The notes beneath the pieces are model-generated. The model saw nothing but the letters and a program-made list of their open reading frames with translations, did no database searches and had not been told where the DNA came from. DNA of 64,000 bases from Branchiostoma lanceolatum (taxonomy: Eukaryota; Chordata; Leptocardii; Amphioxiformes; Branchiostomatidae), in NCBI RefSeq assembly GCF_035083965.1, contig NC_089740.1:7933552-7997551 (forward strand), in the 5' to 3' direction. Position 1 is the stretch's first letter, and every line of letters begins with the position of its first letter. Shown in pieces: positions 28,896-58,400 of this stretch. The position numbers were made by a program, and so were the translations under genes.

Positions 28896-28965
28896 CCCAC
28901 TTTGAAAAAAAAGTCTTGTCACCTAACAAACAATAGCTTGTAACATAGCGGGAGCCTACTTAAGC

Positions 28966-30225: not shown

Positions 30226-30325
30226 GAGTGATGAGGGTTGACACGGTAGCCTTCGCGTGGATTTGTTTAGGTTGGATGACAGCCGCGCGCTCTACCACTT
30301 ACGCCACACGACGCCACACACATAT
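30226..30325 (-). repeat. tRNA-related SINE fragment
   Basis: The minus strand has an A-box-like TGGCGTAAGTGGTAGAGCGC, closely resembling a tRNA D-arm, followed by a degraded remainder. A full tRNA cloverleaf is not formed, so it is scored as a SINE head. Confidence 0.5.
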
Positions 30326-32044: not shown

Positions 32045-32540
32045 TTTATAGATGCGTTTTGATGTTCCGATGTGTAGATGTGTTCTGATGTGAAGATGTG
32101 ATCCGATGTGTAGATATGTTCTGATTGGTAGATGTGTTCCGATATGCATATATTTTCTGATGTTGTAGATGTGTTCCGATGTGTAGATATGTTCTAATGT
32201 GTAGATGTGTTCCGATGTGTAGATATGTTCTAATGTGTAGATGTGTTCCGATATGCATATATTTTCTGATGTTGTAGATGTGTTCCGATGTGTAGATATG
32301 TTCTGATGTGCAGATGTGTTCCGCTGTGTAGATGTGTTCCGATATGTAGATGTTTTTTGATGTTGTAGATTTGTTCCGATGTGCACATGTGTTATGATGT
32401 GTAGATGTGTTCCGATATTTATTGATGTGTAGTATTAGTTGCATAATATGTTACAATGTACAGATAACTATCAATATATTGATGTGCAGATGCGTTACGA
32501 TATTTAGATGTTTTACGGTGTGTAGATGTGTTCTTATAAA
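32045..32540. repeat. About 18-bp minisatellite (GATGTGTTCCGATGTGTA type)
   Basis: GTAGATGTGTTCCGATGT and GTAGATATGTTCTGATGT units alternate for about 490 bp, making a 36-bp higher-order unit, with occasional longer GCATATATTTTCTGATGTT variants. The reverse strand reads open as HIGTHLHIRT repeats, which is a shadow. Confidence 0.92.
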
Positions 32541-33657
32541 CATTTCCACTCAGGACAAACACATGCTTCAATAGAGACAAGCGGCGCCACGCGCCAGACC
32601 CCCCGCGAGATAAAAATGGCATATTCCACTTATCCATGTATACTTAAGTGAGTCAGAGGTCCTCAGGCTTAATGGGCTGCAATATGCGTGTGTTTGATAG
32701 GTGCACGCGATAACGAGGCTCGGTCGATACAACGCAGACGGGCAAAAATAGAGCTGTCGTTCTAAGAGGCAACATCGCTCTCAAGAACCTACATGTACCG
32801 TGTGTTCTACCCTCACCGTATGGCTGCCATGGACTCATAGTTTGCAAGGTGAGCGTACGCTTTCTATTGACGATAGTGTCCGAGTTATGTTGTAGGCTGT
32901 AGCATTCAAAAGGTTGCTACAGTTTCGCGGAGTGAAAGAGTATCCAGGGTGGTTTATACAAGCGATGGCGGTTGAAAAAGCACCACCGGCCGGCTTTCAT
33001 CGGATACCCTACGGAATGTTCGTAACATCTAGAGCGTGATCGATCGAATGTACACTCGCACAACCACCGGTAGAAAAAGGTATCGGCTGTACGGAAAAAT
33101 ACGCCGGGTAAAGACCGCTTCAGTCAATCTTGTATGTGCTTTTTTAGACGGAAATGAAATGGTTCAAGGAATAACAATACATGCGAAGCCCAAATCAACC
33201 ATGTTTTCCGTGAAATCATATACATCCTGTCTTTCGGAAAAGAGGGCTTAACCATTTATGGTTTCAGAATATGAAGACAAAACACACCTGTTTCGGAAAC
33301 AATACTGTATTTTACAATACCAGTGACTCTGTAGATGTTTTTAAACCTAAACCCTACCTTATGTGTACATGCAGTGGGTGTATCTAGCTTGGCTCAGTAA
33401 AAATTGAACCCTGGCCGCAGGCCTAATATTTATTCTGCGCGCTGTGTAAACCTAGATCTACCGGCTTCAAACAGGTGTGTGTTTATAAAACATCTGATCT
33501 GCTGGAGTAAACCTAGAGATATCAGCTGACGGATCAGCCTCGGGACACAACTGGGGCAAAGCTTTTGTTTATCCCGTGTGTTGACTGGGTCGTTTCGCGC
33601 CATGGGTCTGTGGGCGATTTAAATGTCACCCGAAAAATCGCCTTGCTTCTTCGGATG

Positions 33658-33806
33658 TTACTTGATCCTACAGTATAGCGTCTAACTTGATCCTATAGTA
33701 TAGCGTCTTACTTGGTTGAACAGTATAGTGTCTAACTTGGTTGTACAGTATAGTGTCTTACATGGTTGAACAGTATAGTGTCTTACTTGATCCTATAGTG
33801 TCTTAT
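33658..33806. repeat. 25-bp minisatellite, about six copies
   Basis: CTTGATCCTACAGTATAGCG begins at 33661, 33686 and 33711 and continues with CTTGGTTGNACAGTATAGTG variants, 25 bp apart. Confidence 0.85.
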
Positions 33807-36800
33807 CCTGTGAACCAGCGATGGTTTGTTTTCGTGAACTTTTACATCTAGATATCCCCGTATATCTAGCTACCCTTGCTGAAAAAATCTACGGGACGGC
33901 GTTCGTATGTTGGGCCGGCTAAGCTGGTTGTAGGCGGCGGGCTAGAGCGTACTAAGGGCCGGCGATTTTTGGGAGGGAGCCGGCCTTCGTTGACGCTGGT
34001 GCCGAGAATAGCAGTGTCTTGTTGCGGAATTCCGTGTACAGAAATCATTCTATACCTACCATTCGGTGGAATAAAAATTGGCCTAATTTGCTAACCCCCA
34101 AACGTGTGATAAAAGACAGCCACACTTAATGACCGTCGCCGTAATAAAATGCCCGCAAACGCCTGTCTTAACCAAACGGACGTTTATTTGACGTCACATT
34201 CATCATCCGCTGACGTCCACGACGCCCACAGATAACCAACATAGCGTCAAGAATCATCTTCACAATAACCAAGGATCATTCTATCATACTTTATTTGCCC
34301 TTAGTCGCCAGTATAAGTGGGCACATCCGTTAACCAATGACGAATGTTATACAACCATACATTGGCGTTCAATAGATGAGAATAGGGATTTGTTAGGAAG
34401 GTCCATGGCCCACCTGTGTCTCATGTAAAACAATATCAGCATAAATTATTAATAAAGCCCCTTTATCTTTGCCATAAACGTCGATATTATCCATATGCTT
34501 TGGGAGACGAAAGGCTTTGCAATGATAAAAGCCATTTGTATGTGAATGTGTATTTATGTATTTATAAAAAAGAACAGCATAGATATAGGGAGAGGGCGTT
34601 GGCACGGAAAATTCGTGCTCTGGTATTTATGAAATAGACCAGGCACAATGCAGCATTAAATTATTAATACGCTCCGATGCATCAATCTATGGTTGACCTT
34701 TGTCCTTTTGTCATTACAGCATAGCAATTTTTCTTAGTCAAACATGCAAAGGAAAAAACACAGTGGTGTCCTTATCAAAAGATACACTGATAGAGTATAC
34801 AACATATACACAGAACATATGCACAAAAAACTAGATATACAAGAACGTTAACGGGAACGCTAGCTGGATGTAGAATACTCATGAAAATGAAACTGTAATT
34901 TATTGTTTTGCTGGAAAATTTGATTTACTCATAACCTTTTCTAAAGATTGTCTGTAATATTTTTGTCCCACTGGATTCTTTTTTTAAACCTCAGACGTGT
35001 GGAAGAAAACTCATTTGGTCTTCAAACTAACAGCATTGGTACATTCATATATTTCCATGTGCTATTTTTGTTCTGGTCCATCTAGAATAACCAAATTTGG
35101 CCATGGCACACACGTAGTTAAATGTGTACTGAATAGATATATACATATATACTGGGGCGTTTCACGATCACGTTTTGCCTAGGAGCATTTTTTTGAGTCT
35201 TTTGGGCTATTTTCAACTATATCTATTTTTTCACTTTCATTTTTCCTCCTCCGCCGTCATTTTTGGAGCAGCAATTTCTGACAATTTGTACTAATGCTAG
35301 TCGCGTTTTTTCTAAGAGCGATTCTCTTTTCAATTATATCTATTTTTCTCTCCGTTCTCCCTCCTCCTCACCTTTATTTTTGGACTGGCAATTTCTGGCA
35401 ATGAATAGTGCTGAATTTGTTATAAAGGAATTTTGGAGTTCATTTTGGGTAAGATTATCACCAAATATATAGAAGTTAAAGGTACGAGCTTTTACAGGTA
35501 GAACTATAGAGCATATACAGAATATACATGTACTTAAATGATAAAAGAAAGATAAGGCTACTTGACGTCAATATACAATGTGGAAAAATTCAATGACTTA
35601 ACAGTTTCAAACCATTCCAGGTTCTAGACATTCTATGCAAAACCTTTTTTCTGAGCATTTGTTCTTGGCTTCGGTAGTCAAATAGTTCGTGAATTATATG
35701 ATCGTGTTTGATAACCGTGTGATTGCATTGTGATCTGTTTATACAAAGAAACTGGCTGTCTATTTTCCATAATTTTACGGAATATCGAAATTCGGCGGCC
35801 TTTCGGCGATCAAAGAACTCGACCAAAGGTCAATGGCCGTGTGACATTTCTTGGCTTGAAGGCGAATATTGCGATAACGTCGAGTGTTTGAAGTTAGGTG
35901 CTTTTTCTCGGAAAGACAACGGACCTACGCACAAACGTCCAATGCATGTGATGTCCTCACCACTTTGACGTCAGAAGAATACGACTTAATGTGCGTGGGC
36001 GCTGATCTTAATCCAATTGACGTGACTGGGTTTTTATATCAAATTAACGTCACGAAATAAAATCCAGAATATTATCTTAATTATATCTAGCTGGAAATTG
36101 AAACACATTTAAGTACGACTGAACACATATTCTGCATGTACAAATGATCTGCAGTGCCGAAATGAAACACTCTCCTTGTTATTTCGATGAAGGTAAGACA
36201 TCCAGGTTGTATACTGGTACGATATGCAAGAAATATGAAAGAATTTTGAAATTTCCAAATAAAACCTATCCAGTAACTGTTTTCTTGCGTATTTTTCCTT
36301 GTATTTCTCGTTTGTATTTCTTGTCAGACGAAATTCACCAAAATGTCTACATGTTCTGTTTTGTGAGCGCTATAGGAGGTCTCATATTAACCAAATGAAT
36401 TATTCTTCCAACAACCCCTACATATATGAGGGCTGGGGGGGGGGGGGCGGTGTTCACAAGAAGAAATCAATATCCATGTTCCGGGGTAGGAACAAGGTCA
36501 AGTCCACTCCACTGTATTGATCCGTAATATTCTTAAGGTCAATGTTTCTCAAGTTCTCGGATGTTCTAGGATTGGGATTTTTGTCAATTAAATTGTGCAC
36601 ATATATTCTTTGAAAAAGAATTCATGTTATTAGCTTCGCCAAGAAGGTTATGTTTTCGGTAGCATTTTTTTTTTACATTATGTCTGCACAGAAGCTACAC
36701 GTGGATTGTGATGATTTTCAGTATAGAGTCAAGACTTGATCTATTAAAGACATTATCAGACTTGGGAACCCCCAGCGGCTTTGGTTGGTACTGTAGAGGA

Positions 36801-36892
36801 ACGTCTGGTTTTCGTATCTTTTGTTCTAAGCATGACGTGGTTATAATTTTTACGCGATGGCTAGTGTTTAAATGAATAAGATGTGGCATTAG

Positions 36893-37621
36893 CTTGGGCC
36901 TCCTAGAATCTTTCTTTAGAACTGCATGGGTGATTTTGTTGTTTGATATCCATTTGAAGGTTTGCTTCTACCCTCACCCATCCCTTCCCCAATCCCCCGC
37001 CCCAAAGTACAACCTCTTTCGCCTGCCCTTTAGATCTCTAGAGCCAATACAAACTTTGATTTCTTCTGAGAGTCCAAAAAGCAATTCCACCTCTGACAGT
37101 TGTATTTTCTCCATCTCGATCAATACCGAGACACCAAGGTTCACACGACAACTATCTACGCATCGAAGCGCACTCAAGGTCACTGTATACGTCATGAAAC
37201 AAACCACGCGGTTTCGTTTGGCACTGCAGAGAAACGTCCGATTTTCGTATCTTTTGTCGTGGTTATGATTTTTAACCACTAGATAGATTTTTTTGATCAG
37301 AAATATGGGGCATAAGTTTGGGCCCCCTGGTAGTTTTCTTTGGAACTGCATGGGTGATTTTGTTGTTTGATATGTATTTGAAGGTATGCTTCTACCACCA
37401 CCATCCAGCCCCCAATATGCGACCTTTCACGCCTGCCCTCTAGATCCAAAAAAGCAATACAAACTTTGATTTCTTCTGAGAATCCACGAAGCAATTTCGC
37501 CTCTGACAGTTGTATTTTCTTCATCTCGATCAATACCGAGACATCAAGGGTCACCCGGCAACTATCTGCGTATCGACGGGCACTCAAGGTCACTGCCTAC
37601 GTCATGAAACAAACCACGCGG
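36893..37621. repeat. 425-bp-offset tandem duplication
   Basis: A block from TTTAGAACTGCATGGGTGAT to ACGTCATGAAACAAACCACG occurs at about 36,893-37,211 and about 37,318-37,620 with high similarity. It includes TCTGACAGTTGTATTTTCT and the CATCTCGATCAATACCGAG segment. Both copies encode the same shadow ORF on the minus strand, with no recognised domain. Confidence 0.85.
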
Positions 37622-37631
37622 GGACCCGTAC

Positions 37632-38490
37632 AGGCAACAATGGTCTGCTATTTGCAATGGGCACCAAATTACTAGATAGGAAATAATCTTATCATTAACC
37701 CTAGAGAATGCTTGTAAATTACACTGCAGCCGTTGGGAAAGTCGGATACGACATTCATATTTCTCGGGGTGTGGATTTTCAAAAGGACGTCCAGTCTGTG
37801 ACAACAGATACATACTTCTGGGGGCCAGTACACGACACAATGGACTGCTATCTTCAACGGAGACCAAATTACTAGCTAGGAAGTAATCTTATCTCCAAGA
37901 CTACAGAATGCTGAGAAATTGCACGGGAACCCTTGGGACAGTTACTAGCGAGATGAATTCGAACGCTAGGTAGGGAATGTGTGGGTGAAAAGAGGAAGAT
38001 TGTAATTTTGTATATTAAATTTAGGTGACGATTTTGTTGTAAAATTGGTCCAAGGTACCCGTAAATGTCTGATATGACTTTCATATTTCCCAGGCTGTGG
38101 ATTTAACCTTCTCCCTGCTGCCTGACTCTGTAACCAATAGAGAATGGGGTGCCAAACGGCTACTTCAGTGTGCTAAAGGTTAAGAACGTCCAGTCTGTTA
38201 CAGCAGATACTTCAGTGGACCCACACACTTAACAATGGACCGTTATCTTCCACGGGGACCGTATTATTGGCTTCAAAGAAATCTTATCTCCAAGCCTATA
38301 ATTCTGAGAAATTTCATCGGAGTCGTTGGGACAGTTACTAGCGAAACGAACGCCAAATGAGAGGGTGAAAAAGGGGAGATTGCATATTGAATACAGGTGA
38401 CGGTATTTGCTTAAAATGGCCCTAGGAACCCCTTGATAAGTCGGAAAAGACCGTTGGTTAAAAAACGTCCGGTCTGTGACAACAGATACG
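37632..38490. repeat. Irregular three-copy array
   Basis: The block ACAATGGNCTGCTATCTTC, then ACCAAATTACTAG, AATCTTATCTCCAAG and CGTTGGGACAGTTACTAGCG begins near 37,637, 37,839 and 38,232. The inter-block sequence GACGTCCAGTCTGTGACAAC also repeats. The second-to-third interval carries an extra segment. Confidence 0.75.
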
Positions 38491-39174
38491 TTGGTCAACA
38501 AAGCGCTGTTTTGCTATCATCACATCACTTACAGCATCCACCGTATTGATGTAGCTAGTCTTTATTGTTGTACACTGCTTCAATCATATCCGAAACAGAA
38601 AACTCCACAACATGTAAAGCAATCTTCCATTAGACTAAAACTCCACTACAGTACCTAAGAAAGTCGCTAGAGGGACAAACATTAATCATTTATCTAAAGT
38701 TTCAAGATTTAAACACAGACCAAATATTCTGACTATACTTCCCTCTTGAGTTAAGCTATTAAACCGGAAACCAACATCATTAACGTTACAAAAACACGTC
38801 ATGTTTTGGTTATGCTTTGACGCTAAAGTCAAAACATAATCGTATTGGAGAAGGTAATACCAATAACACACGCCAGTGCTGACGTCTGCATACGTCTATC
38901 GGCTTATCTCTTGTAGAGTCGCACAAATTGGCCAATAATTAGATTGAGTGCTAGCGAATGGTCGCCGCTATCGCTGTATCTGTGGAATCCAATCAGACGG
39001 TAGACACCAAGGTTATCTAAATGCATGGGCAACGGCACGGCGTAATTTTGCTGACGCACTGACGTGCATTTTGATATGGACACGCATTTTTAATGAAATA
39101 AGATTTTCTTTGGCTCATGTTCTATGACTTGAAAAATATTGTTTAAACAAGAGCTATCCAACACCCAAACATCG

Positions 39175-39545
39175 TGACCAAGGCTTGTTCAGAACACGAG
39201 ATATCAAAACCGGAGGTTCCGCTACAGTACCAAGAAAAGCCGCTAGGGGGCCCGATCAGTTTTTGTCCCACCCTACAACACACCAAATATGAAACCGATC
39301 CATCCAGCCGTTCTCAAGCTATCTTGTTGACCAACAGATCTAGACACACACACACACACGCTACTGAAAATATAACCTTTCGTGACATTTCAGGGAGGAA
39401 CAAATTACGCAAGATAGAAATATGTCCAGTCAATAAACCTGTTATATTATGGCCAAGGAAACGTTTTTTTGTGTGTGATAGATTGGAAGAGGATAACATT
39501 CTGCTTTCTGGGTTGAAATCACATGCTGCCCAGCTTGAGGGTAAT
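39175..39545 (+). repeat. Degenerate interspersed repeat copy (GCTAGGGGGCCC core)
   Basis: Shows GAGATATCAAAACCGGAGGT, TACAGTACCAAGAAAAGCCG and CTAGGGGGCCCGATC. The same ordered blocks occur on the minus strand near 36.76-36.86 kb, and on the plus strand near 38.58-38.70, 40.4-40.75, 41.27-41.45 and 63.89-64.0 kb. No ORF in it resembles a transposase. Confidence 0.6.
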
Positions 39546-39869
39546 TGAGGGTCAAACTCACGCGATGATTTTAGGAAATTTTCCACGTAATGGTGTCCAG
39601 TTCAATTTCACGGTCGGGAGCCCGGGGATTGAGTCCGTACATCTTACTCCGGCTGGGCGGGCGAGTTGTACGGCCGACAGGATCTCTGTACGCGGGGTTA
39701 CTGATAAAACAATGTTTTGAAGACTATGAAATCTGATTTTACCGTTTCACAGTCTTACTCCTTTTTTACTTCGCTTTTTTGACAGACAGGGACGACGTAG
39801 TACTGCACTCAAGTTTTTCATAACTTATTCTAACAGTACAGAGAACAATAAGCCCATTTTTACAACTAG

Positions 39870-39985
39870 GTGGAGTGAGGAAAGTCGTGTAAAGTGCCTT
39901 TCTCAAGGGTACAACATCGGTGGGGGGATTCGAACACAGGACCGCTGGGTTCTGGGCCGAAAACCCTGCCGTTACGTTTTGATAC
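39870..39985 (-). repeat. tRNA-derived SINE fragment (family of 19212-19490)
   Basis: The minus strand carries CGTAACGGCAGGG and a B-box-like GTGTTCGAATCCCCCC, then TTGTACCCTTGAGAAAGGCA. This is the same order as in the element in the LU-mucin intron. Confidence 0.5.
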
Positions 39986-40395
39986 TTGTTGGGCGCTGTG
40001 TGTGTGTGTTAGATGACTAGCGAAAATGTCAGTAAATTTGAAGGATAAAACACTGCTTTTGCCGGAGAGAGGAAAATTATGTATGAAACGTAGTGGTGTT
40101 CTGGCCCCAAATCCCCATAGACCTCTTACTATGTCTTTGACATGACCTGATGTATTATGTTGACACGGTAACAGTGCACGTAGTACGCTGACGTCAATGA
40201 AATGTGCGTATCACCAACTCGAGGGCTTCACAAGTGGAGGGTACCTCTTTCTGACGTTCATTTGATATTCATGTTACACAGTAGCGTTGGGGGGGGGGGG
40301 GGGGGGGGCTACGTTAGTTTACATCTCCTAGTTGGGAAGACACACTGCCTTCAATATAAAAAAAATACGTTGTTCCTGTCTTCATTTTATCCTCC

Positions 40396-40760
40396 TTGAA
40401 AGATTTTAACCAAAACGCCCCTGCAGTTCTAGAGCAAACTACTAAGGATCCCAAACATACACCACTCCTTCCATACATCAAAAGCTACCAAACAATCAAG
40501 ACCATAGCATGTCCAGGACAAAAGATACAAAAAATGGACGTTCTTCTGCGGTACCAATTCCACAAACCAAGGGGCAAAAAATCGACCTTGACCTTTGTCT
40601 TTCCAACACCTACATTTTTATCGTCCCACATATCAGATACAATCACAACCCATCCAGAGGTTCTTACGTTATTGCTAACCACGAATTTGCGGAAACACAG
40701 ACAGAAGCACATCCACAGACACAGACAAAACAATACCTTCATGTTTTCATGGAGGTGATT
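40396..40760 (+). repeat. Degenerate interspersed repeat copy (GGGGCAAAAAATCGACC type)
   Basis: Begins AAAACGCCCCTGCAGTTCTA and runs through GTCCAGGACAAAAGATAC, GGTACCAATTCCACAAACC and TTGACCTTTGTCTTTCC. The opening block is repeated at 63,903-63,960, and the middle at 41,338-41,450. This is one of the longest copies of the family. Confidence 0.65.
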
Positions 40761-41690
40761 TAGATGTTATGTAAAGTACAAGATCGTGACTGCTTGGGTT
40801 CTCTTATACAGTTGAAGTGAGGGGCTTTCAGAGAAACCCATCTATCACACTTCTTTACCAGTCCATGTAAACCATTACACAATGCAGGATATCTTCTTTA
40901 GTAAATGTCAAGCTCAACGACAATCGCACAGATGTGACACTGATTTATTGATTTATCAATATTTTCACCTTTTTCAGTCATAACAGTTTTGCACATATTG
41001 CATTTGAAGTGTTTTTTTGTGACGTAAACGTTGTAGAGTCCTCTCATTGACATTCAATTAGCGCCCATCAACTTACATTAAAGCTGAAAACTATCATGAA
41101 CTCTTATGCAAGGACATTAAAAGGCACTTGACCTATGTGAATAAGATGTCGTAGTTGCGTTGAAATCAAATCGACTTCTCAAAATGCTTGCTCCAAAAAG
41201 GCCATTTCAAGATAGCGGCCTTTATACCACAAGTTGTAAGTGAAAATGTTTTGTCTTACATCAAAACTTTATAAACTAGGGGGCCCAAACCTACACCACT
41301 ACTTATATATTAAACTCTATCTGTCACAAAGACCATAGAACGTCCAGGAAGAAAGATACAAAAACCGGAAGTTCTGCCGCAGTACCAATGACAGCAGCCG
41401 AGAGGGGAGGGGGCAAAATAGACTTTGACCGTAGTTTTCCCACCACCTGAGTAAGCGTGTTTGCGTGTGTGTTGGAAGTGTACAGTTCCTGAGTGACCGT
41501 GTGTTTTGGAAATGTACCGTCCCGAGTGAGCGTGTGTGTCGGCGGCAGCTGCCGCGTGCTCGGGTCGTTAAGACCTCCAGCCGACCGTGAGTAAATACAG
41601 CTGACGTGCGCAGCGCCTCTAATGTCGCGTTGCTCGGCAAAACGAGCCACGACCTCAAGCGTAGGACGTGACGGCCACCCAAAATCAAAT

Positions 41691-41898
41691 ATACTGTAAA
41701 TGCATTTAAGTTCGCGTGGTTTTTATTTCGCGCTAAGGTGAAAATGGAGTGTTCGTGGTGATTTTAAGTTCGCGGCAGCGCTATAGTCACATACTGCGAC
41801 AGTATTGAACAAAAATGTTGGTTTAAGTTCGCGGTGAAACGGTAGCCGCGAAAACCGCGAACATTAAACCACCGCGAACATTTCTGCATTTACAGTAT
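41691..41898. mobile_element. About 205-bp MITE (TIR CTGTAAATGCA..., TTCGCG-rich)
   Basis: The left end ATACTGTAAATGCATTTAAG is the reverse complement of the right end TCTGCATTTACAGTAT. The interior repeats AAGTTCGCGG, with its complement ACCGCGAAC near the right end. The flanks allow a TA target duplication (Tc1/mariner-like). No coding capacity. Confidence 0.85.
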
Positions 41899-42759
41899 CT
41901 CCGAGAAGTACCACTTGTACGCCGACAGCACCTTTTTCTCAGCGCGATCCAATTTAGTTTGACGTCTGTGGTTGGATATTACAGCCACCCACACAGAGTA
42001 AAATAGGATGTAATAACAGTAACGCTGGGACCTATGGTTAGATATTATAACCATCCACGCACAGTAAAAAGAAGTAATAACAGTAACGATGGGATATTCA
42101 AGCTGTCACCGCTACAAGTTTTCACATCAATCATAGAAAGGAAGTGTTGTATTATTGAACTTAACGACAATCGTCCGTATATTGAGTTCATACAGAAATT
42201 TATCAAACGAGAAAGCTACGGTATATTTGTACGGTACGGTACTTTTCTGCAAGCAAATAGTGATATATAATTTTATTTATTTCGGTAGGTCAATTTCATA
42301 CAATTCTAAACGTATACCATTATTGAAATGAATAGCAACAATATCAAATTTAGAAATAACCCGTACAATCTTCTGTGCCTCATTCCATTTAAAACCTATG
42401 GTAGAAAAAATGCAGTTCTGTGTTGACAGGATTTAGAAATTACTTTCTGGTGTTCACATTACAACGGGCTTAATAGTGGCAGCAAATTGCCATTAAATGA
42501 CCGTGTTGTTTAGCAATGTTTGAGTACTTTAATTTGCATTCAATGATAAAGTCTTTCCTCTTGTGGCATGCATACCAATTGGGCTGGAGACCGAATTGTT
42601 ATGTTTGTCCCTGTTGTCAACCAGCGATAGAAGCAACGCGGCAAGTAATTTGAAAACTTTGATAAAGTGGACATTGATTGGTTGTATGTTAGAGTTTAAC
42701 AGTGTGCCTCCGTTCTTGTTTTTAATGCTTGTAGGGGGCGGAACGTTTGCTGAGTCAAC

Positions 42760-45700
42760 ATGGAGGGTTCAGTAGCGGGCACAGTGCGAGGTCTCTTCCA
42801 CCAGCTCAGTCTGGAAGGGTCGCCGTTCGTTATCCAACTCCCGTTCCTAAAAAAGACAGATAAGGAGACATCAGAAGCTAGCCCGTCCGCCATGGAGCTA
42901 GATCCACCATCAGAAGACGTTTGTAGACAGGAGGACGCCCGTAGACTATCTACAAGCAGCGTTGAATCTGTGAAATCAGTGAACTCGCTAGCTTCCAGTA
43001 TGACCAGTAGTGAGTGTTCGGACGTTGAAGACAATTCAGAAATTGACAGCGACACAGAGACAGAGGAGACGCCCAGCGGTTGCTCAGCAGTCCTTGTCAG
43101 ACGTCGACGGTCTTCCCTCAGCATAGAATCCAGTGAAGACGACGGAATGTCCGATTACGAGGAGGATAACATCCTCTCCGTGTATTCATCCGTCCCGAGT
43201 ACAACCAAGACTTCCGTCCCGGGCACTCCTCTGTCAGAAACCGACGAACCGTTCGTGAAAAGAGGCGCCACCGAAGTGGTGAAAGAGTACCATGCAGGAG
43301 GAGAGAAGAATGGACTTAGCATGCACTTAACGGGAACTCACACCGGAAATAACTCCACATCCAGAAACAGCTCGTTTGTTTCCATGCGGACTTTATATTC
43401 CATGGATGACATTGGGGAACCCAAAGACAAGAAACGCGGTGGTAACAAAGTGATGCAGTTCAACAGACTTTCGTTAGATGGCGCTGCCGGTAGAATAGCA
43501 CCGTGTAGTGAAGAGCCTCCACTGAAAGATGCCAGTAAACATGGTAGTCAAGATGGATACCCAGAACTAGAGGAGGACATCAATGGAAACCGGCCGTACC
43601 CGCCCGCCCTGTCTGACCAGAGTTCGTCAGACAGGACAAAGCCGAACCTGAAGTTGAACTTGAAAGGACTTTGTGGGAACACACCGTTTGGAAAGAAAGA
43701 CTTGATGGACGGGAAACTCCTGAAATCACCCCCAGCCTGCCTGGGTAAGTATATGAAACTATTAAAAGTGTTGTTTTGTTCTATCATTGGACTACTAATG
43801 TAGTAGATGCCAACCCCGTATACATCATATCGTGTTTGGCAATGGATTTTATTGTGTTTGTCTCACACATAGTGACATTCCACTACTTGCAAAACAGTAT
43901 TATATATCAAATCTATATATAATTCTAAAATATGCTAAATATTGTCGTTGTATTTTGTGATTTCTACAGATGTATCAAGTGAAGACCACGTACCAGGGTC
44001 TGCCTCGGTCGACCTTCGTAGTAGAATTCCAAGATGGCCGACCAGCTCAACCGTCACATCCGGGTTCTCCGAGCTCCTCCTGACCCCATCTGACCTGACC
44101 GAGATGGATTCTGACGAATCAGACGTCAGCGACTGTGAGGACTTCTTCGACATGTCTCACGTCGGCGTCTTTCACAACATCGTGCCGTGCAACGGTCTTG
44201 AAGAGTTCGCTCGCAAGTATTTCAACGAAGACTCTCTCTCTTACAAACTATTCGTGGACATGGCAAGACAGAGCCCCGTCGTTCAATCCATCGTGGAGGA
44301 CGAGTTTTTGTGGTACTTCATCTGTCTATACTGGAGAAAAAACGGTCGCCAGCTTCCCGCAAAGTTCATTCAGTTCATAGAATTCTCGATAGCCGAGTAC
44401 ATGTTTTCTTACGCGCAAACAAACGACATGAGTGACAAAGAAACGTACGGAAAAGCGTTGGAAAGGCTTGCGTTCGTCGGAGGCGTTGGCTTCTACAACT
44501 TGATAGGGATGGAAATCATGTCAATCGAACCACACCAGCTCAAGGGAGTGACAGACAACATTGAAGAATACTCCTTTGGTATTTTCAAGGGAAACGAGAG
44601 AAGCTCAGAATGTACAGGAGCAAGCCTACACGTCTATGACTACTGCATCTCATTGTGGATCAGTGGTGAACTGAACATACTATTGGGGAAACTGACAAAG
44701 GAAGAAATGGCGAGTTACCACGTTATCCACCACTGTGTGGGTACTCTGGAGTACACGCCGAACATTTGCTCGTTCTCGTGCGGGATTCTAGGTGAGAGCG
44801 CCGAGCCGTTGTTAGCAGCCATGGCCCAGCGGGCGGCGCAGACGGGATCCTTCTCCGACGCCGAAGCCTGCCTCATCGCCATGAGCGAAAGCAACCAGAT
44901 GGAGACCATGATCCACCTTGCTGACGTCATGTTTCCCAACAAGGTCATTGACCTCACGTCCCTCCCCACCCTGTCCCCAATGGGTATGGCGGCGCTCGTA
45001 CACCTGATCAACGTCTCTAAATTTCTTTGGAGACTTGAGATTCTTCCTGCTGATCTGACCATCTCGGACGGAATCTACGGACTGATGCGAAGACTTGAGG
45101 CAGATCCTTTCCTCGAGAAAGTGACCCTACGGAGCTCCGTTGATGGTGACATTGACACGCTATGTCGACTGTTACATCTCATCCCAGTCCTGGCCGCAAT
45201 GAGATTCAAAGAAGACTTCGGACAGTGCAGTCTTGACGAGTGTGAGATAAAAATCCGCAAAGTCGACCTGTCGTGCAACTACCTAGACAATGACGACATC
45301 CTGCGGCTGGCAAAGGTACTGCCGTCGCTGTCGAAGCTTGAGCATCTGAACCTATCACGTAACTGTGTGACGGCAGATGGAGTGTCGGCTCTGACGCGTT
45401 CTCTCGCGTATCTCCGTCACGTTTCCAAGATCGACCTGAGTAGTAACCGTCTCGGGCCGGACGGAGGGAAGGAACTGGGCGTTCTACTCAAGGTCTGCCC
45501 GGTCGTCCGCCATCTTGATGTGTCCGACAACCAGCTGGGCGACGAAGGCATGTCCGCCATGGCAGAGAACATGCCGCACGTCAAGTCTCTGAGAAGATTC
45601 CTGGTCGCCAACAACGGCATGACGTTCTCTGGGATATCGTATCTATCCCAGGGACTTCTCAAGGCAACGGCAAGGCTGGAGCTCTTGGACGTCAGCGGAA

Positions 45701-46716
45701 ATGACGTCACATACGAAGGTGCGCTTGCGCTGGCCGCCATCTTTCCTCACATGAATCACATCCACGAGGTGAACGTGTCTGACTGTAATCTCGGGGCAGA
45801 CGGCGCAAGCGCGTTGGCCAAAACCTTCCCTGAGCTAAAGAGTCTCAAGAAAGTGAACATGAGTCGGAACGCTCTCCGTGACCGCGGTGTGGTGGAGGTC
45901 CTTCAGCATGTCAGCGAGCTCTCTCCGCCAATCCAAGTCAACCTGGAGGCTAATGACATTAAGAGTGACATGATCGATCAGATTGTCAATGAAATCAGCA
46001 ACCTGCCCCTCCTGGGCTCCCTAGACCTGAGCCACCTAACCCTCCGCCGGTACGAGGCCTTCGCTCTTGCCTACACGCTGCAGCGAATGTCCTCGCTGGA
46101 GACTCTGGATCTCAACGACAGCTTCATCGAGGAAGCAAACTTCGCGCCTATCGGAGCTAACCTCAAGCACCTCTCGCTCCTACGCAGCCTGCAGGTCTAT
46201 AACAACAGGATAGGATGCGCAGGCGCAATGGGACTGGCTAGCTCACTACCGTTCCTGACACACCTCATGCACCTCAACATCCAGTTCAACTCCATCCCAG
46301 AATCCGCCATGCTCGCCGTGACGGAGAACGTCAAGTACCTTCCGTCTCTCGTGTTCCTCGACCTCGGATGGAACGCCGTTGGCAACAACGGAGCGAAGGC
46401 TCTGGCGGCATCCTTTTCAAGTCTCCCGCACCTGCGCACTCTCCTTCTCCACTCGGCTCAGATCGGAGACGACGGTGCAGTTGAGGTCATCCAGGCATTG
46501 CCGATGCTCAGTAAGCTGGAAGTCCTGGACCTCGCCGTTAACAAGATCAGCGACGGCTACATCGCCCCGCTTGTCCAGAGCCTGAACGGTCTCTTGCACC
46601 TCCAGAGCGTGGATCTGTCCTTCAACGAGTTCAGTAACAGCGGGATCTGGGAAATGAGCGGGGCTGTGCGGGAGGACGTCTGCCTGACGGTTCTGCTAAA
46701 GACGCCTGGGCAGTAG
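42760..46716 (+). CDS. NLR-like LRR protein lacking the NACHT nucleotide-binding core, two exons
   Basis: Exons 42760-43744 and 43970-46716 (CTG G|GTAAGT, TTTCTACAG|AT; phase 1), 1243 aa. An in-frame TGA nine bases upstream fixes the start. Residues 1 to about 390 are Ser/Asp/Glu-rich and disordered, with no CARD, DED, Pyrin or P-loop. About 392-620 (FHNIVPCNGLEEFARKYF, WYFICLYWRKNGRQLP, LERLAFVGGVGF, ICSFSCGILGE) matches, in order and spacing, the helical and winged-helix part of NLR proteins downstream of the NACHT Walker B. About 700-1240 are ribonuclease-inhibitor-type LRRs of 28-29 residues (VDLSCNYLDNDDILRLAKVL, LDVSDNQLGDEGMSAMAENM). NLRs are cytosolic sensors that oligomerise with ATP; this one has no visible ATP site, so it may be a scaffold or decoy. 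The next gene on this strand is 3 kb away. Confidence 0.9.
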
Positions 46717-47313: not shown

Positions 47314-47319
47314 AATAAA
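47314..47319 (+). terminator. Candidate polyA signal of the NLR-like gene
   Basis: AATAAA about 600 nt past the stop codon, the first canonical hexamer downstream. Confidence 0.45.
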
Positions 47320-49599: not shown

Positions 49600-49929
49600 C
49601 GCCTTAGACAATTGTTGTGCCTGGGACGCATTTGGACCTGAGCTGAGCTTCTCTGCCGAAGCGCCCGAAAGTCGGTAGGTGGCGTTGTGCGGTCTTGTAT
49701 TGCGCAACACCTCTTCGTAAGATAGTGATTCGCGGATGGTGACCCCCTGACCTCTCTCGGCTTGTTGCTTTGTTTGCTTCCTCTATTTGCACTGAGCGCA
49801 CCGATCACAATTGAGAATAGGGTCCAAAGTGCGAGTTCGAGCTTGTGCGTGAGGTGTCCATAACGGCGAAGGGAGCGGAATCAACTTTTAAAACGGTTGT
49901 ATTTAAAGAAATTACACAGAAAAGTACGA

Positions 49930-52900
49930 TGGTAAGTGAAGGTTTGCCAAACATGTTCTCTTTACAGATATTTGATGCAACTTAACACCAAATTTTGGAA
50001 ACCTGATTTAGGGTCAGGTCGATTATATCTCTTTTTTTGTTTTATTATCTTTTTCAGTGCAGTATTTGTATCCTTTTAAAGATATTGTTTATCATCCTTG
50101 ACCGTTTCATAGTTGAGCCTCCTGGTTCCAATTAGTTAGTAACTACTGAGGAGACCCCTGCTCGAATCTGGGAAGGGTATCCTTGTTGGAGCCGCGCCGT
50201 CTTTCGGAAGAGACGTAAATGGGGGTCCCGTGTTCGAGGAGGTGCCTCGAGCACGTTACAACAGCCTCATTACTCAGATGGGTACCTACGAGCACGTTAC
50301 AACAACCTCATTACTCAGATGGGTACCTACTGGCTGTAATAATACAACATGGTGAACATTAACATTGCTACGATCGTACGGTTCATGGGTCGGGCACTAG
50401 ACTGCGTAGATGAGCTTGTTCCGTAACAAAAGTGCTGAAATTTCCCATGATCATTTATCTGTGTTTTTTGTGCGTTTTTTTTCGCGACGCTCTTAGGGAG
50501 CGAGTACATTTGATAATATACTATTGTGTCCTCTCTACAAGAATTAGAGTAGTCTGGCATCAAGCAACACGACCTACCTTCCACCGCTTACCCCCTACCA
50601 GCCTCCCGACCTCCACCGCCTGCTGCCGCCCGCCTTCTCGGCCGCCGTCCTGTCTGAAGACCGTGTGTTTGTTGACTGGGAACCGTACAAACTTTCTCAG
50701 TCCAACATGAAGAAGTTTGTAGAAGCGGGCTGCTATATCCTATCCAAAAATACTTAAGCAACTGGATAAAATTTTGAAACAGTCAGACGTTTCAGCCAGC
50801 ATATCCGCCATCTTTTGTCAGTGCCTAAGGAAATATCTGGCAGAACCAGGTTTTATACTAAAACATTGAAGGTCACACACGTTCAGTTACGTAACCTTAT
50901 GCTTAGGTCCCAATTGGAAAAGGGGCCCCGCCGGGTAGTTTACGGGCTGTTGTTTTTCATATTCCGGCGTGACCCCTACGTGGCCCCGTCGGACACCTTG
51001 CGGTTGCCGGGCTATTTTGGGGCCCGCCGGTACCCCGAATCATTTTAACTCGGACTTTAAATGCTTACCTATAGTCATCCCTACCTCTGTCAGCAGTGTT
51101 GGGAACAAGACCGCTTCTAAACTGCCCTGTTGTCTAGACGAAAAAGGAACACGATCTACATAGAGGTAGTGTTCAAGAATATACATGGAATGCAAAAAAC
51201 AACAGCAAAAAACAATCTGAAGATGCAAGACATAAAACAGATGGGCCGGAAGCGAACTGATTGGAGACGAAAGGTACGCAACTTAGGCGCCGAGACCCAG
51301 ACACAGGCCAATCGACCCAACGTTGAGGAGAATCAAGAACTAGTATCCAGAAAGTGTTTGATAAAGTATGACAAAATTCAGTGATCTTTTCTTTTTATGG
51401 AAAGGGTGACGGCGGGTTGACAGCAAGGGAAGCGAAGCATGACGACTACGAGGCCGTGATGAAGATGGCTCGACCGGACACCTTCCGTGACGGTTTCGAC
51501 TACCTACCAGCCAGGTTTCACCAGTATGTGGATGATCCGGACGTTTTCATATTAATCATGTTAGAAAGTGGCGACAACCTGGTAAGTACGTGGGCATGAT
51601 TTTATCTAGTGATACACCATTTTCCACTTTTGTGGGGCTGGCCGGCGAGTTGAGATTAACAGGTCATTGACAGTGGATTGCTTGCTTTCGCCCCACCATG
51701 GAATTGAACTGCTTCCGTGAAGGCTCTTGGTGACATTTTTCGGTGTTGTTGCATATAGATGAAAAATGTAGCATAGCCATAATGATTCGATTCTAGCGTT
51801 CTACATTGATAGAAAAGGGGGCGTTGTCATAGATAAGGGTAAATGTTTAACCGAACAACGGACAATTAGGGCACTAAATGGAAATAATGTATATGATTAG
51901 TAATTATACATTGGTCCAGAACACTGCAATGTGGCAAGAATACACACTAAAGATGACATGAAGTTTGTAAATCTCCCCGGAATAACGATTGTATCGGTTG
52001 TATCTTGACCAATTTAAGTTGGTTAAGTGGGCCAGCACTATATTTTATATTTTCCAAACTTTTCCCATTTTGACCACAGTACACAAGCTAACCATCGAAA
52101 ACGGTTGATTCCACGACCGTGGAAGTCAATAATCCACGGTATTTGGATATGACGTCACAGTCACCCAAAAGTTTCAACATGGAGATTCTATAAACGACAG
52201 AAAATAACAGATAAAAGACATTTGCAAACCATTAACTTAAAATGTGATAATCTGTTTTCCTGTCTCAAACTGTTTAATCAGTCAAAATCTCTTGGTGTTT
52301 ATCTCTTACGGAAGACTTTTTAATGCAGGTAGGGATCACCCTTAACATGTTTCACGACGATGGCGAGGCTCTACTGTTGAAAACCGGTCGTCAAAACCCA
52401 AAATATGACGATGCGTTTCGTCGGGTGAGTCAGTCCACTCCGATGGTATTCAAAGATTTCCTCCTCCAGCGATGTAAGCCAACGACCTTGTTTCAATGTG
52501 TCGGTGAAGGTCACCGGACGAATCTTCACAAATTCCTGCAGTACTATGGGTTTTGGGGCAAGGACAAGTGCAAGTTTGTAAGTACATCGTGCATGAACAC
52601 CCGTCTTTAATATGCATTCATTTTATTCCGCTTTAGAGGGTTTTAAGGACAATGATTCTGACCAATTTTAATTGTTATGAGATACGCTATTCAGCTCCAA
52701 AGGTTGCGATGTATTTTGATCGAAAAAACCTCAGAACAAGACCGCATGGTCCATCAACAGCCTCGGCGTACGGGACAACGGTTAGCCTTTCTCGCTGCGT
52801 ACTTGCTGGCCAGCCGTCAGTAGCCAATCACGTCGCTGCCTACGGCCAAGATGCAACATGATTGGCTTAAAACTTTCCTTTTAACAACAGGGATCTGATT

Positions 52901-53673
52901 GGCTGACGGATGACCAGTTGTTAACTCAGCGAAACGACACGCGAGTGTCGTTGATTGAAAGTGTGCATCAACGATACATCGTCCCCCTTCCGTGTATTTT
53001 TTTTTTGTTTCTCTCAACATGAGGACGACAGACCTGTATCACGTTATAACTTGTGCACTGTGTAACTGCGCTACTATATTTAATGTCCTTTCCTTTTCAG
53101 GATACCATCTACTTTCAGTCTGACGTGTCTGCCATCCAGAGTAGTCTGGCATCAAGCAACACGACCTACCTTCCACCGCTCATCACCCCCTACCAGCCTC
53201 CCGACCTCCACCGCCTGCTGCCGCCCGCCTTCTCGGCCGCCGTCCTGTCTGAAGGCCGTGTGTTTGTTGACTGGGATCCGTACAAACTTTCTGAGTCCAA
53301 CATGAAGAAGTTTGTAGAAGCGGGCTGCTACATCCTTGTCGACCCGACCGAACCGGCCGCTAAGAGTCTTAGTTTCGGCGGGAGTTACATGACTCCCCGA
53401 GGCAGGGTGTATCACATAGACATACACTGTAAGGACGAGGCTTTATGTAAGGCTCATATCATAAACCAAGTGAAGAACGCCTGTAGTCAGTATAGAGGCA
53501 TGATAACCTTCTGTATCATGGTGATAGACCAGGCTTTGAAGGTAACAGTCGTGAAATATTGTGTAGAATATCTGACACTGAGTCACCTGCCCCACGATCA
53601 CACCTATACTCTGTATGAAACAGATCTCACCACCATGGCTAATGCTGCTCTTAGAAAAAAAGCTAAGTACTAG
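49930..53673 (+). CDS. NAT16/histidine N-acetyltransferase-like protein, copy A
   Basis: Exons: 49930-49932 (ATG alone, then GTAAGTG), 51405-51581, 52329-52577, 53101-53673; all phase 0; 333 aa. Exon 2 carries the family start (LTAREAKHDDYEAVMKMA, FDYLPARFHQYVDDPD). Exon 3 is the GNAT core (MFHDDGEALLLKTGRQNP). Exon 4 carries VFVDWDPYKLSESNMKKF, matching the C-terminal half of vertebrate NAT16 (WQPYRPSESN). NAT16-type enzymes acetylate the alpha-amino group of histidine using acetyl-CoA. The usual R/Q-x-x-G-x-G/A loop after the GR strand is here KYDDAFRR, so catalysis is doubtful. The single-codon first exon is conserved in all three units. Intron 1 holds a SINE and a stray exon-4 fragment. 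Confidence 0.82.
50111..50333 (+). repeat. tRNA-derived SINE in intron 1 of unit A, with internal 41-bp duplication
   Basis: Has a B-box-like GCTCGAATCTGGG and the family body CGTCTTTCGGAAGAGACGTA. The 3' part GAGCACGTTACAACAGCCTC through GGGTACCTAC is tandemly doubled, which units B and C do not show. The element is inherited with the duplication (55657-55830, 61263-61440). Confidence 0.75.
50545..50742 (+). pseudogene. Displaced fragment of NAT16-like exon 4 inside intron 1 of unit A
   Basis: Matches exon 4 of the same unit (about 53,139-53,335) at roughly 95 percent by eye, with a 3-nt in-frame deletion and conservative changes (G to D, D to E, E to Q). The frame stays open for over 60 codons. 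It replaces about 160 bp of intron present at 56,043-56,205 in unit B and the equivalent part of unit C. There is no splice acceptor at its left edge, so it is probably not an exon. Confidence 0.85.
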
Positions 53674-53914
53674 ACAGCAAGCACTGATGATGTTGTCAAA
53701 AAGACGAAAACGCGTTCATGATAAAGTCAAACTAACAAATCACACAGTTGATTCTACAACATTTTCTTCGACTGTCACTGTTACAATTCTATAGCGACAT
53801 ATTTATATTGATTTCTTGTCTGAGTATGAAGTGGGGAGTGATGGGAACTCCAGTAGCATAGCTAGGATGGCATCTATGTCAATAAGTTTAACCCTTGTCC
53901 TGTTGGCTTTCCAG

Positions 53915-54002
53915 TAATCTCCAAGCAGATCTGCACGGGAGCTGGAGCTTGAGCTTCTCTGGCTACGATTTTCGCGCCCCGTGTAGATCTGCTTGGAGAT
54001 TA
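53915..54002. mobile_element. 88-bp hairpin MITE with 9-bp TSD (unit A)
   Basis: Left end TAATCTCCAAGCAGATCT, right end AGATCTGCTTGGAGATTA, arms of about 24 bp (plus GCACGGG / CCCGTG). GCTTTCCAG flanks both sides exactly (53906-53914 and 54003-54011). It lies about 240 bp past the stop of gene A and would be transcribed if the 3' UTR extends that far. Confidence 0.9.
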
Positions 54003-55475
54003 GCTTTCCAGTGCCACTGCTTTGAAACAAAGGGTACTAGTTTGATATTGCTCATTTTTAGCTGTGACCTCGCTGTACAACAACTGTGTCATCCCCCCAT
54101 ATTTGGTGAATACTAGCATACAGAACAAACATGTGTAAACTAATACTTATCGGACTCAGCAGGACTAGGACTACGGCATATAAACTGCGTAAATACCTAG
54201 GCTCCCTCCTAACAATCGTCCATTGACTCCAGTGCCTTCACGACACTCCTGACTAGCCTCTAGGATAGAGCTCTTGTTGACTTGACAAAGACTGGAGCAG
54301 TACAGTCGAAAATTTTGGTAAGTCCAATATGATGTGTGGTGGAAATTATAGTTCAAACTTGTCCCAGAATGACTTGTACAAGCACAGATGAACTTTCAAG
54401 CTCAGAGGTCTTGTTGTTTTATGCACAACACCACAGCTTTCTTATGTTACAACCACTTCGTTTGTTTCAATTTGTTTATGTGAACAACCTTCCCTCGTCA
54501 CAAATCGAATATTCCGAAAGAACAAACCTAAAAAAAATGTAATGCTAAAGAAAACAAATTACTGGCGAAGATTGCTCAGCTGTTGTCAAAACAGCTAATT
54601 TTAAGACAGATATTGTCTTGATAGATATGTTCTTATTAAACACGAACCTTTCTATACCGGTTTAGACGTTCTAGTTATCAATTCCGTGAAAACGGAGGTA
54701 TTGTAGTCACTTGGTGTGTTTGCTTGTGTGTCTAGGTGTGTGCCTGCAGTTATGTGAATACCAATATCGCAGAGAGGCATGCGGCAACATGTAACTAGTA
54801 AGAGTGGTTTGGGTCATTTGTACGGATGGCAAGCCATATTGTTACATCTTGACATAAACATCGTTTGCCATCGTGAATCCGTACTGCTTCGATAGTATCT
54901 ATTTCTGTACTAGGCTGATACGAGAGAGAAACTTTGATTCGCGATAGCGATCACGTTTACAATTAACGCAGTACGGAGTTGAAAAATGAATTGTTCCCTT
55001 TACCGTAGTACAGACAGACTTGTGTACAACACTAAACTATAGTAGAACATTTTCTTTGGCCGGCGGAAGTAAGCAACTTGTCCAATATTGTGACGTTGAA
55101 CATGTCATTCAATTACATCTAAAAAGCTTAGAATTCTAAGCGTTACGCCTTAGACAATTGTTGTCCCTGGGACGCATTTGGACCTTGAGCTGAGCTTCCC
55201 TGCCGAAGCGCCCTAAAATCGGTAGGTGGCGTTGTGCGGTCTTGTATTGCGCAACACCTCTTCGTAAGATAGTGATTCGCGGATGGTGACCTCCTGACCT
55301 CTCTCGGCTTGTTGCTTTGTTTGCTTGCTCTATTTGCACTGAGCGCACCGATCACAATTGAGAATAGGGTCCAAAGTGCGAGTTCGAGCTTGTGCGTGAG
55401 GTGTCCATAACGGCGAAGGGAGCGGAATCAACTTTTAAAACGGTTGGATTTAAAGAAATTACACAGAGAAGTACG

Positions 55476-58400
55476 ATGGTAAGTGAAGGTTTGCCAAACA
55501 TGTTCTCTTTACAGATATTTGATGCAACTTAACACCAAATTTTGGAAACCTGATTTAGGGTCAGGTCGATTCTATCTCTTTTTTTTGTTTTATTACCTTT
55601 TTCAGTGCAGTATTTGTATCCTTTTTAAGATTGTTTATCATCCTTGACTGTTTCATAGTTGAGCCTCCTGGTTCCTATTAGTCGGTAACTACTAATGAGA
55701 CCCCTGTTCGAATCTGGGAAGGGTATCCTTGTTAGAGCTGCACCGTCTTTCGACGTAAATGGGGTCCTGTGTTCGAGGAGGTGCCACGAGCACGTTACAA
55801 CAGCCTCATTACTGAGATGGGTTCCTACTGGCTGTAATAATGCAACGTGGTGAACATTAACATCGCTACGATCGTACGGTTCATGGGTCGAGCACTAGGC
55901 TGCGTAGATGAGCTTGTTCCGAGACAAAAGTGCTGAAATTTCCCACGATCATTTATCTGTTGTTGTTGTTGTTGTTTTTTCGCGACACTCTCAGGGAGGG
56001 AGTGCATTTAATAGTATACTATTGTGTTCTCTCTACAAGAGTTCCAAATATTGGATAGGAATTCTTCCCGCACTCCACAGGAATGCATACTGTGGAATAC
56101 CCAGTCGAGAAAGTGTGTCACCCCCCTCCCCCTTTGCGTAATGAAAATCCCCGGGACAGTAAACTAGGTCACATACGTCAAAAATAGTTACTCATTGTCA
56201 AGCAACTGGATAAAATTTTGAAACAGTCAGACGTTTCAGACAGCATATCCGCCATCTTTCGTCAGTGACTAAGGAAAGATCTGGCAGAACCAGGTTTATA
56301 CTAAATCTTTGAAGGTCACATACGTTCAATTACGTAACCATATGCTTAGGTCCCAATTGGAAAAGAGGGCCCCGCCGGGAAGTCCACAGGATTTTTTTGT
56401 GTGTGCGCATATTCCGGCGTGACCCCTACGTCTCTCCGTGGGACACCTTGCGGTTGCCGGGCTATTTTGGGGGCCGGCCGGTACCCCGAATCATTTTAAC
56501 TCGGACTTTAAATGCTTACCTATAGGCATCCCTAACTCTGTCATCAGTGTTGGGAACATGTCCGCTTCTAAACTGCCCTGTTGTCTAGACGAAAAACAAA
56601 CACGATCTACATAGAGGTAGTGTTCAAGAATAAACATTGAATGAAAAAAAAAACATAGCAAAAAACAATCTGAAGAAGCACGACATCAAAAAGATGGCCC
56701 GGAACCGAACTGATTGGAGACGAAAGGTACGCAACTGAGACGCAGAGACCCAGACGAAGGCCATTCGACCCAACGTTGAGGAGAATCAAGTATCCAGAAA
56801 GTATTTGATAAAGTATGACAAAATTCAGTGATCTTTTTTCTTTATTGAAAGGGTGACGGCGGGTTAACAGTAAGGGAAGCGAAGCATAGCGACTACGAGG
56901 CCGTGATGAAGATGGCTCGACCGGACACCTTCCGTGACGGTTTTGACTACCTACCAGCCAGGTTTCACCAGTATGTGGATGATCCGGACGTTTTCATCAT
57001 CATGTTAGAAAGCGGCGACAGCCTGGTAAGTACGTGGGCATGATTTTATCTAGTGATACACAATTTTGTACTTTTGGGGGGCTGGCCAGCGAGTTGAGAT
57101 TAACAGGTCCAAAGACAGTGGATTGCTTGCTTTCGCCCCACCATGGAATTGACCTCCTTCCGTGAAGGTTCTTTTCGGTGTTGTTGCAAATAAATGAAAA
57201 GTGGAGCATTGTCATAATGATTCTATTCTAGCGTTCTAGATTAAGAGAAATGGGGGCGTTGTCACAGATAAGGGTAAATGTTTAACCGAACAACGGACAA
57301 TTAGGACACTAAATGGAAATAATGTATGTGATTAGTAATTTTACATTGGTCCAGAACACTGCAATGTGGCAAGAGTACACTACTAAAGATGACATGAAGT
57401 TTGTAAATCACCCCGGAATAACGATTGTATCGGTTGCATCACGACTAATTTAAGTTGGTTTAGTGGGCCAGGACTAGCTTCATATGAGGCCATATATACC
57501 AGTACATTTGATTTGAATCTTGAAAATGGGAAGTTGTCAGCAAACAATGAAGTGATCTGGTTCAATGGACAGTGAACACTATGGTCATTGGTGCACATGA
57601 ATCATATGTTGTTTAGGTATATGATTTATATTTTCCAAACTTTTCACATTTCTACCACAGTATACAAGTTAACCACCAAAGCGGTTGATTCCACGACCGT
57701 AGAAGTCAACAATCCACGGTATTTGGATATGGCACAGTCGCCCAAAAAGTTCAACATGGAGATTCTGAAAACGACAGAAAACAACAGATAAAAGACATTT
57801 GCAAACCATTAACTTAAATTGTGATAATCTGTTTTCCTGGCTCAAAACGTTCATCAGTCAAAATCTCTTGGTGATTATCTCTTACGAAAGACTTTTTAAT
57901 GCAGGTAGGGATGTACGTTTTCATGTTTCACGACGATGGCGAGGCTCTACTGGGGAAAACCGGTCGTCAAAACCCAAAATATGACGACGGGAGTGCGTTT
58001 CGTCGGACGAGTCAGTCCATTCCGATGGTATTCAAGGATTTCCTCCTCCAGCGATGTAAGCCAACGACATTGTTTCAAACTGTCCATGAAGGTCACCGGA
58101 CGAATCTTCGCAAATTCCTGCAGTATCTGGGGCTTTGGGGCAAGGACAAGTGCACGTTTGTAAGTACATCGTGCATTTTTGAACACATGTCTTTAATATG
58201 CATTCATTTTGTTCCGCTTTAGAGGATTTTAAGGACAATGATTCTGACCAATTTTAATTGTTATGAGATACGCAATTCAGCTCCAAAGGCTGCAAACGTA
58301 TTTTGATCGAATAAACCTCAGAACAAGACTGTATGGTCCATCAACAGCCCCGGCGTACGGGACTACAGTTAGCCTTTCTCGCTGCGTATCAAGTTGCTGG

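Follow-up and report, generated by a model that had tools for sequence, protein, structure and literature searches.

A two-exon amphioxus gene that may encode an NLR-derived leucine-rich repeat protein without a nucleotide-binding domain

The 64,000-nucleotide stretch of the Branchiostoma lanceolatum genome analyzed here (NC_089740.1, positions 7,933,552 to 7,997,551; hereafter the window) carries a two-exon gene whose protein of 1,243 residues ends in leucine-rich repeats (LRRs) and shows no detectable NACHT nucleotide-binding domain (NBD). We favor, at roughly an even chance, the view that this is an intact gene derived from an NLR, which would have lost the NBD and kept HD1, probably the winged-helix domain (WHD) and HD2, and LRRs of the ribonuclease inhibitor (RI) type, its product being a constitutive LRR scaffold or modulator. 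As judged by sequence comparison, the protein is most likely cut between the NBD and HD1, and a Ser-rich polar tail, acidic near its end, would stand in place of the effector domain and the NTPase.

42760..43744, + strand: exon 1, residues 1-328 and the first base of codon 329 (read directly)
43745..43969, + strand: intron of 225 bp, GT-AG, with donor GTAAGT and acceptor TTTCTACAG
43970..46716, + strand: exon 2, residues 329-1243 and the TAG stop
44149..44478, + strand: piece tested as NACHT HD1 and winged-helix start, residues 389-498, with local alignments within 404-478
44419..44967, + strand: piece tested as a WHD-HD2 remnant, residues 479-661, with LERLAF, LHVYDYCISLW and FSCGILGE in this order
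44968..45249, + strand: unassigned stretch, linker or degenerate repeats, residues 662-755, between the helical region and the regular LRRs
45250..46680, + strand: RI-type LRRs, about 17, residues 756-1232 (Pfam, pattern scan, 28-residue period)

The case for an NLR origin is carried by profiles of NACHT helical domains (HD), the target protein having been left out of every bacterial one. A genome scan with vertebrate rows yielded 18 bacterial loci; four of their proteins were checked, and Pfam NACHT was found in all four and HEAT repeats in three. Further genomes brought the collection to 123 loci and 119 HD regions, 99 after removal of near-copies, and these 99 NACHT-type regions plus four solved NLRs make up a 103-row profile. 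Local scores, taken for residues 389-661, were 5.7 bits with a 22-row profile (18 bacterial and 4 vertebrate rows; 3/5,000 shuffles as high), 7.3 bits with 52 rows (5/20,000), 8.3 bits with 103 rows (1/10,000) and 6.0 bits with the 99 bacterial rows alone (1/10,000). When the rows were divided, those of the chlamydial phylum (33) gave 6.1 bits (13/10,000 shuffles as high), the non-chlamydial bacterial rows (66) 1.4 bits (36/10,000), and the latter together with the vertebrate rows 4.5 bits (2/10,000). In all seven profiles the best local alignment starts from profile position 16-21 and from target residues 404-406, the first HD1 helix, and the disjoint chlamydial and other-bacteria profiles place the target in the same register.

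End-to-end alignment (250 shuffles each) gave z values of 5.01 for the 103-row profile, 4.48 for the bacterial one, 3.09 for the other bacteria and 4.38 for other bacteria plus vertebrates, with no shuffle as high for any of the four; with 1,000 shuffles, the 103-row value was 4.75. The HD1 and winged-helix-start piece alone reached z 5.39 (0/1,000 shuffles as high), and in 1,247 control windows, each 110 residues long, neither the z of the target (best control 4.1) nor its raw score was reached. Part of the controls were long open reading frames (ORFs) lying beyond the HD regions of the bacterial loci, some of them maybe antisense or noncoding; the others came from the C-terminal portions of NACHT proteins and from the TRIM-type and KLHL proteins of the window. 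Those for the full-length profiles also take in other parts of the target, and since control windows overlap and some loci are duplicated, they are not independent. With the 52-row profile, one of 184 controls exceeded the target in z and one in local score, and the raw end-to-end score, which has no composition correction, was reached by 2-8 of the 184 depending on gap cost and by 1-7 of 600 shuffles.

Within the target itself, the HD1 scan was best for the window at residue 393 (z 5.30). Scans with the full-length profile had their top windows starting at 321-401 (z 3.81, 2.83 and 2.24; rest at most 1.72) and, in a further scan, at 361 (z 3.54; rest at most 1.28). Alignment by hhalign gave an E value of 3.6e-4 for a single comparison. 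On this evidence, good if not final, we conclude with moderate confidence that HD1 is retained and that an NLR-like register resumes there.

A preliminary description of this DNA had proposed a segment resembling the NLR region downstream of Walker B, quoting the motifs GLEEFARKYF, WYFICLYW, LERLAF and FSCGILGE, all of which are present (at residues 404, 443, 492 and 597, respectively). For HD1 the proposal is borne out by the controls and shuffles just given, whereas winged helix and HD2 are suggestive only: the piece comprising residues 479-661, taken alone, had z 1.52, with 72/1,000 shuffles as high, which is not significant by itself. A winged-helix and HD2 remnant is therefore no more than hinted at.

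This lack of significance is one of several results that weigh against an NLR origin. A Pfam search of the helical region before the LRRs returned chance matches only and no NLR, and a sequence search of the same region against the PDB returned nothing up to E 10. Whether or not two consensus rows were added, a profile of the solved NLRs (four in number) gave no local signal, 387 and 625 of 5,000 shuffles being as high; end to end, a vertebrate-only profile was weak (26/1,000 shuffles as high, or 45/1,000 with real rows only), and pairwise comparison with NOD2 gave no signal. The chlamydial rows alone had an end-to-end z of just 2.37 (4/250 shuffles as high), and scanning the target for HD1 also gave z 4.09 in the N-terminal tail (window at residue 141), though the raw score there was low. 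The hhalign probability was 37%. On the 103-row full-length profile, 3/249 controls beat the z of the target; all three belong to the C-terminal portions of NACHT proteins. A window of the KLHL protein came close, at z 4.37. One unassigned ORF scored 8.7 bits, against 8.3 for the target region, among the 163 entries listed in the local search, and when the 1,670 pieces of the window were scanned unguided, the exon-2 ORF came second (E 1.2) to a 12-residue chance match (E 0.093).

Some further lines were set aside. A likeness seen by eye between an LSPxxxxAL motif and the HD2-LRR junction of NOD2 was dropped, as 100/500 and 493/500 shuffles scored as high in the pairwise tests; hhalign runs with few rows (E 0.055 and E 0.048) and alignment A1 were too weak to be used. 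A single-sequence AlphaFold (AF2) model of residues 390-888 had a mean pLDDT of 44, too poor for a fold search, and although its helix order fits HD1-WHD-HD2, this was counted as no evidence. Searches for relatives of the helical region in the genome contigs, and of the exon-2 protein in viral contigs and in phages, found none, and the vertebrate NLR rows had no match in the viral contigs.

On the bacterial side, NACHT-HD matches were found in 11 of the 116 genomes searched (loci L019-L057). They were numerous in some genomes of one phylum, that of a Parachlamydiaceae record, with 22 in genome G063, 14 in G001 and 10 in G035. Two of the four bacterial NACHT proteins checked (L001 and L012) had a trypsin-like N-terminus.

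The LRR half is straightforward. Pfam matched the protein to LRR_6 with E 1.3e-40, and the models above cut-off were LRR models only. A pattern scan found 14 repeats between residues 756 and 1205 at a spacing of 28 residues (once 29), which implies about 17 repeats up to residue 1232. The LRRs thus run to the end of the protein, as had been described, but the regular ones start at about residue 756 and not directly after FSCGILGE. PDB matches of the LRRs included designed LRRs, ribonuclease inhibitor, ciliary LRR proteins, RanGAP, LRRC34 and the LRRs of NLRs alike; because they spread over NLR and non-NLR proteins, the LRRs alone are not diagnostic of an NLR. In exon-2 protein numbering, the best stretches of the 60 PDB matches listed begin at or beyond residue 416, about residue 745 of the full protein; for ribonuclease inhibitor, RanGAP and LRRC34, which have RI-type LRRs and no NACHT, the likeness thus covers the repeats and not the helical region or tail. 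The NCBIfam matches to STM4015 and XopAC are due to the LRRs and score far under the cut-offs of these models, and both were rejected.

Such proteins suggest another reading, which we hold to be possible, if distinctly short of probable: an RI-type LRR scaffold with a lineage-specific helical domain of its own, whose likeness to NLRs would reflect convergence of amphipathic helices, no NTPase ever having been lost. The breadth of the LRR matches speaks for it, as do the fruitless Pfam and PDB searches of the helical region, the nonsignificant WHD-HD2 piece and the control windows, which are heavier-tailed than shuffles on the full-length profile. It is countered by the HD1 score, which none of the 1,247 controls reaches, by the agreement in register between two disjoint profile sets, and by the position of the top full-length-profile windows of the target.

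The claim that the ATP-binding core of NACHT is absent is supported as far as the window reaches. No P-loop of the form [GA]xxxxGK[ST] occurs in the 1,243-residue protein, nor on the + strand of the 42.7 kb upstream within the window; the sole + strand instance in the window, at 57938, lies downstream of the gene. The protein has no Pfam NACHT match. An NBD profile was built from 90 bacterial NACHT sequences; rebuilt with ten rows omitted, it recovered 10/10 of them at 1.2e-20 or better. Compared with 1,670 six-frame pieces of the window (at least 25 residues each), the whole profile gave E 0.8 at best, for a - strand piece of 27 residues, and the target protein was not among the best 8 window matches listed. 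With neither an upstream + strand P-loop nor a convincing NBD match, a hidden NACHT exon within the window was rejected. An exon with an intron-split P-loop, or one outside the window, is a possible way for the gene to hold an NBD.

As for the gene model, direct reading of the sequence reproduced the exon coordinates, the upstream in-frame stop and the 225-bp intron reported in the preliminary description. Two flanking signals complete the picture.

42751..42753, + strand: in-frame TGA, two codons 5' of the ATG (read directly)
47314..47319, + strand: poly(A) signal AATAAA, about 600 bp 3' of the stop

The ATG is flanked by A at -3 and G at +4. That exon 1 codes for protein is probable, because its synonymous-codon score of 0.071 (training on exon 2 and on the TRIM and KLHL genes of the window) exceeds those of all 161 comparison pieces, overlapping 984-bp segments of window positions 26000-42600 with a mean of -0.176, a standard deviation of 0.062 and a maximum of -0.028. 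The gene is intact, being open across its two exons; the helical region and every LRR lie within exon 2 alone. No second copy or paralogue was found in the window.

These features bear on two readings that we consider very improbable. According to one, the gene model is incomplete, and an alternative transcript joins an upstream NACHT exon (outside the window or intron-split) to exon 2; the acceptor in front of exon 2 would allow such splicing, but the window showed no + strand P-loop in the upstream 42.7 kb and no convincing NBD match, and the good start context, the stop just before the ATG and the coding-like exon 1 argue for the transcript as modeled. According to the other, to which we give equally little credence, the gene is a decaying NLR fragment free of constraint. 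In animals whose NLR families have expanded, partial NLR genes are a common sight, which counts in favor of such decay; against it stand a frame of 1,243 codons that stays open across both exons, canonical splice sites, a coding-like choice of synonymous codons and the poly(A) signal.

The N-terminal tail (residues 1-395) is polar, has few hydrophobic residues and matches no known domain, and its composition suggests disorder. It had been called disordered and acidic; the acidity is clear in residues 329-395 (Asp/Glu 22%, Lys/Arg 4%). Residues 1-328, the exon 1 part, are only mildly acidic (Ser/Thr 22%, Asp/Glu 16%, Lys/Arg 11%), and charge-hydropathy places two of the eight 51-residue windows over residues 1-401, those beginning with residues 1 and 301, among ordered sequences and the others among disordered ones. 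Pfam gave DUF3246 (E 0.15) as sole match for residues 1-328, without CARD, PYD, Death, DED or BIR, and NCBIfam gave no match for the exon 1 part. A specially phosphorylatable tail was considered and rejected: residues 1-395 contain 18 CK2-type sites, compared with 15.5 (standard deviation 3.1) in shuffles, and are not enriched. Two elements of the tail deserve mention.

43099..43110, + strand: RRRR, residues 114-117, a possible nuclear localization signal
44035..44181, + strand: acidic-aromatic segment, residues 351-399, in which 5 tiles of 39 residues satisfy a published acidic activation-domain rule

The rule, taken from the portion of PMC10550315 that sets it out, is compositional, and the candidate segment partly overlaps the HD1 piece. 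Among 5,000 shuffles of residues 1-402, at least one tile appeared in 5% and as many as in the target in 1.7%; the TRIM and KLHL proteins of the window had zero tiles. By analogy, the activation-domain-like segment and RRRR recall CIITA (NLRA), which we treat as a lead. The two proteins share a long N-terminus with an acidic stretch, many Ser/Thr and a basic cluster, as well as C-terminal LRRs.

Followed through, this lead would make the protein a CIITA-like nuclear co-regulator, with the acidic segment as a transactivation domain, LRRs binding DNA-bound factors and the nucleotide step dropped, a reading that we find improbable. CIITA, as described in sections of PMC3797414, has an acidic and a Pro/Ser/Thr-rich domain added at its N-terminus as well as nuclear localization signals and does not bind DNA, in keeping with the tiles and the basic cluster seen here. 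The compositional nature of the rule, the 5% of shuffles with at least one tile and the partial overlap with the HD1 piece detract from the comparison, and CIITA itself, according to the same sections of PMC3797414, retains the tripartite NLR plan, whereas the present protein has no detected nucleotide-binding domain.

Returning to the favored view of an NLR that lost its NBD, it is through an ATP-driven switch of NACHT that NLRs are understood to be activated. A protein without a P-loop would have no ATP-binding switch and no NBD-driven wheel, which would make a scaffold or modulator likelier than an assembling sensor. Binding of one partner, perhaps a full NLR, may fall to the LRR and helical parts, with the acidic tail recruiting or repelling another. 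As to origin, we would propose a 5'-truncated NLR transcript (a retrocopy) that gained a new 5' exon, which would explain both the break within a single NLR exon and the intronless LRRs; in zebrafish NLRs and NLRC3, whose exon layout is given in a passage of PMC4852459, the place of this break lies within one exon. No run of eight A, as a trace of retrocopying, was found within 7.8 kb after the stop.

Known amphioxus NLRs (NLRC and NLRD types), like other metazoan NLRs, share with the present protein an RI-type LRR C-terminus preceded by HD1-like helices, but the present protein differs in having no detected NACHT NBD and no Pfam match to CARD, Death, DED or PYD. The amphioxus proteins are described as CARD-NACHT(-LRR) or Death-NACHT-LRR in the part of PMC11508797 that covers them, and an excerpt of PMC2575513 gives about 21 predicted NACHT-containing domain combinations in amphioxus. 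Among plant NLRs, an extract of PMC9851556 presents NRG1C and NRCX as modulators that have lost executor activity, NRG1C being N-terminally truncated and an antagonist of its paralogue NRG1A. NRG1C differs from the present protein in lacking the CC-R domain and in belonging to a plant NLR family, and the present gene has no paralogue in the window.

In the neighborhood of the gene, a MITE-like element lies about 0.9 kb upstream (41691-41898), its 36-nt terminal arms 78% complementary and 136 nt apart. Downstream, 49600-63480 is a tandem duplication with units of about 5.5 kb, pieces of which are 85-92% identical, and the units bear a histidine N-acetyltransferase C-terminal ORF at 53050-53673 and at 58650-59273 (Pfam Hisat_C, E 1.4e-33 and 2.8e-33, respectively). 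The - strand carries the TRIM-type protein (8222-11746, an open frame of 1,174 residues with RING, B-box and NHL), the BTB-BACK-Kelch (KLHL) protein (1-1679, cut by the window edge) and, at 17201-18349, a stalk of Thr-rich, mucin-like repeats that, as judged by eye, probably ends in a transmembrane segment; this repeat also yields long open frames on the opposite strand and in another frame.

A survey keyed to NACHT would presumably pass over the present gene. An exact-phrase search of an open-licence library found no paper on NACHT-less NLR-type proteins, a result that does not by itself show their absence from print. A bolder proposal, which we regard as rather unlikely, is that the gene represents a switchless NLR family, in which HD1-WHD-HD2-LRR would be kept, the NTPase dropped and an acidic disordered tail present, and whose members would be nuclear or cytoplasmic, nucleotide-independent modulators of full NLRs. 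If true, this would be a metazoan counterpart of the plant modulator NLRs, and the question hinges on orthologues sharing the same cut between NBD and HD1. Were it conserved, the architecture would reveal NLR jobs that are independent of the nucleotide switch, and the modulator-NLR idea derived from plants would become testable in animals.

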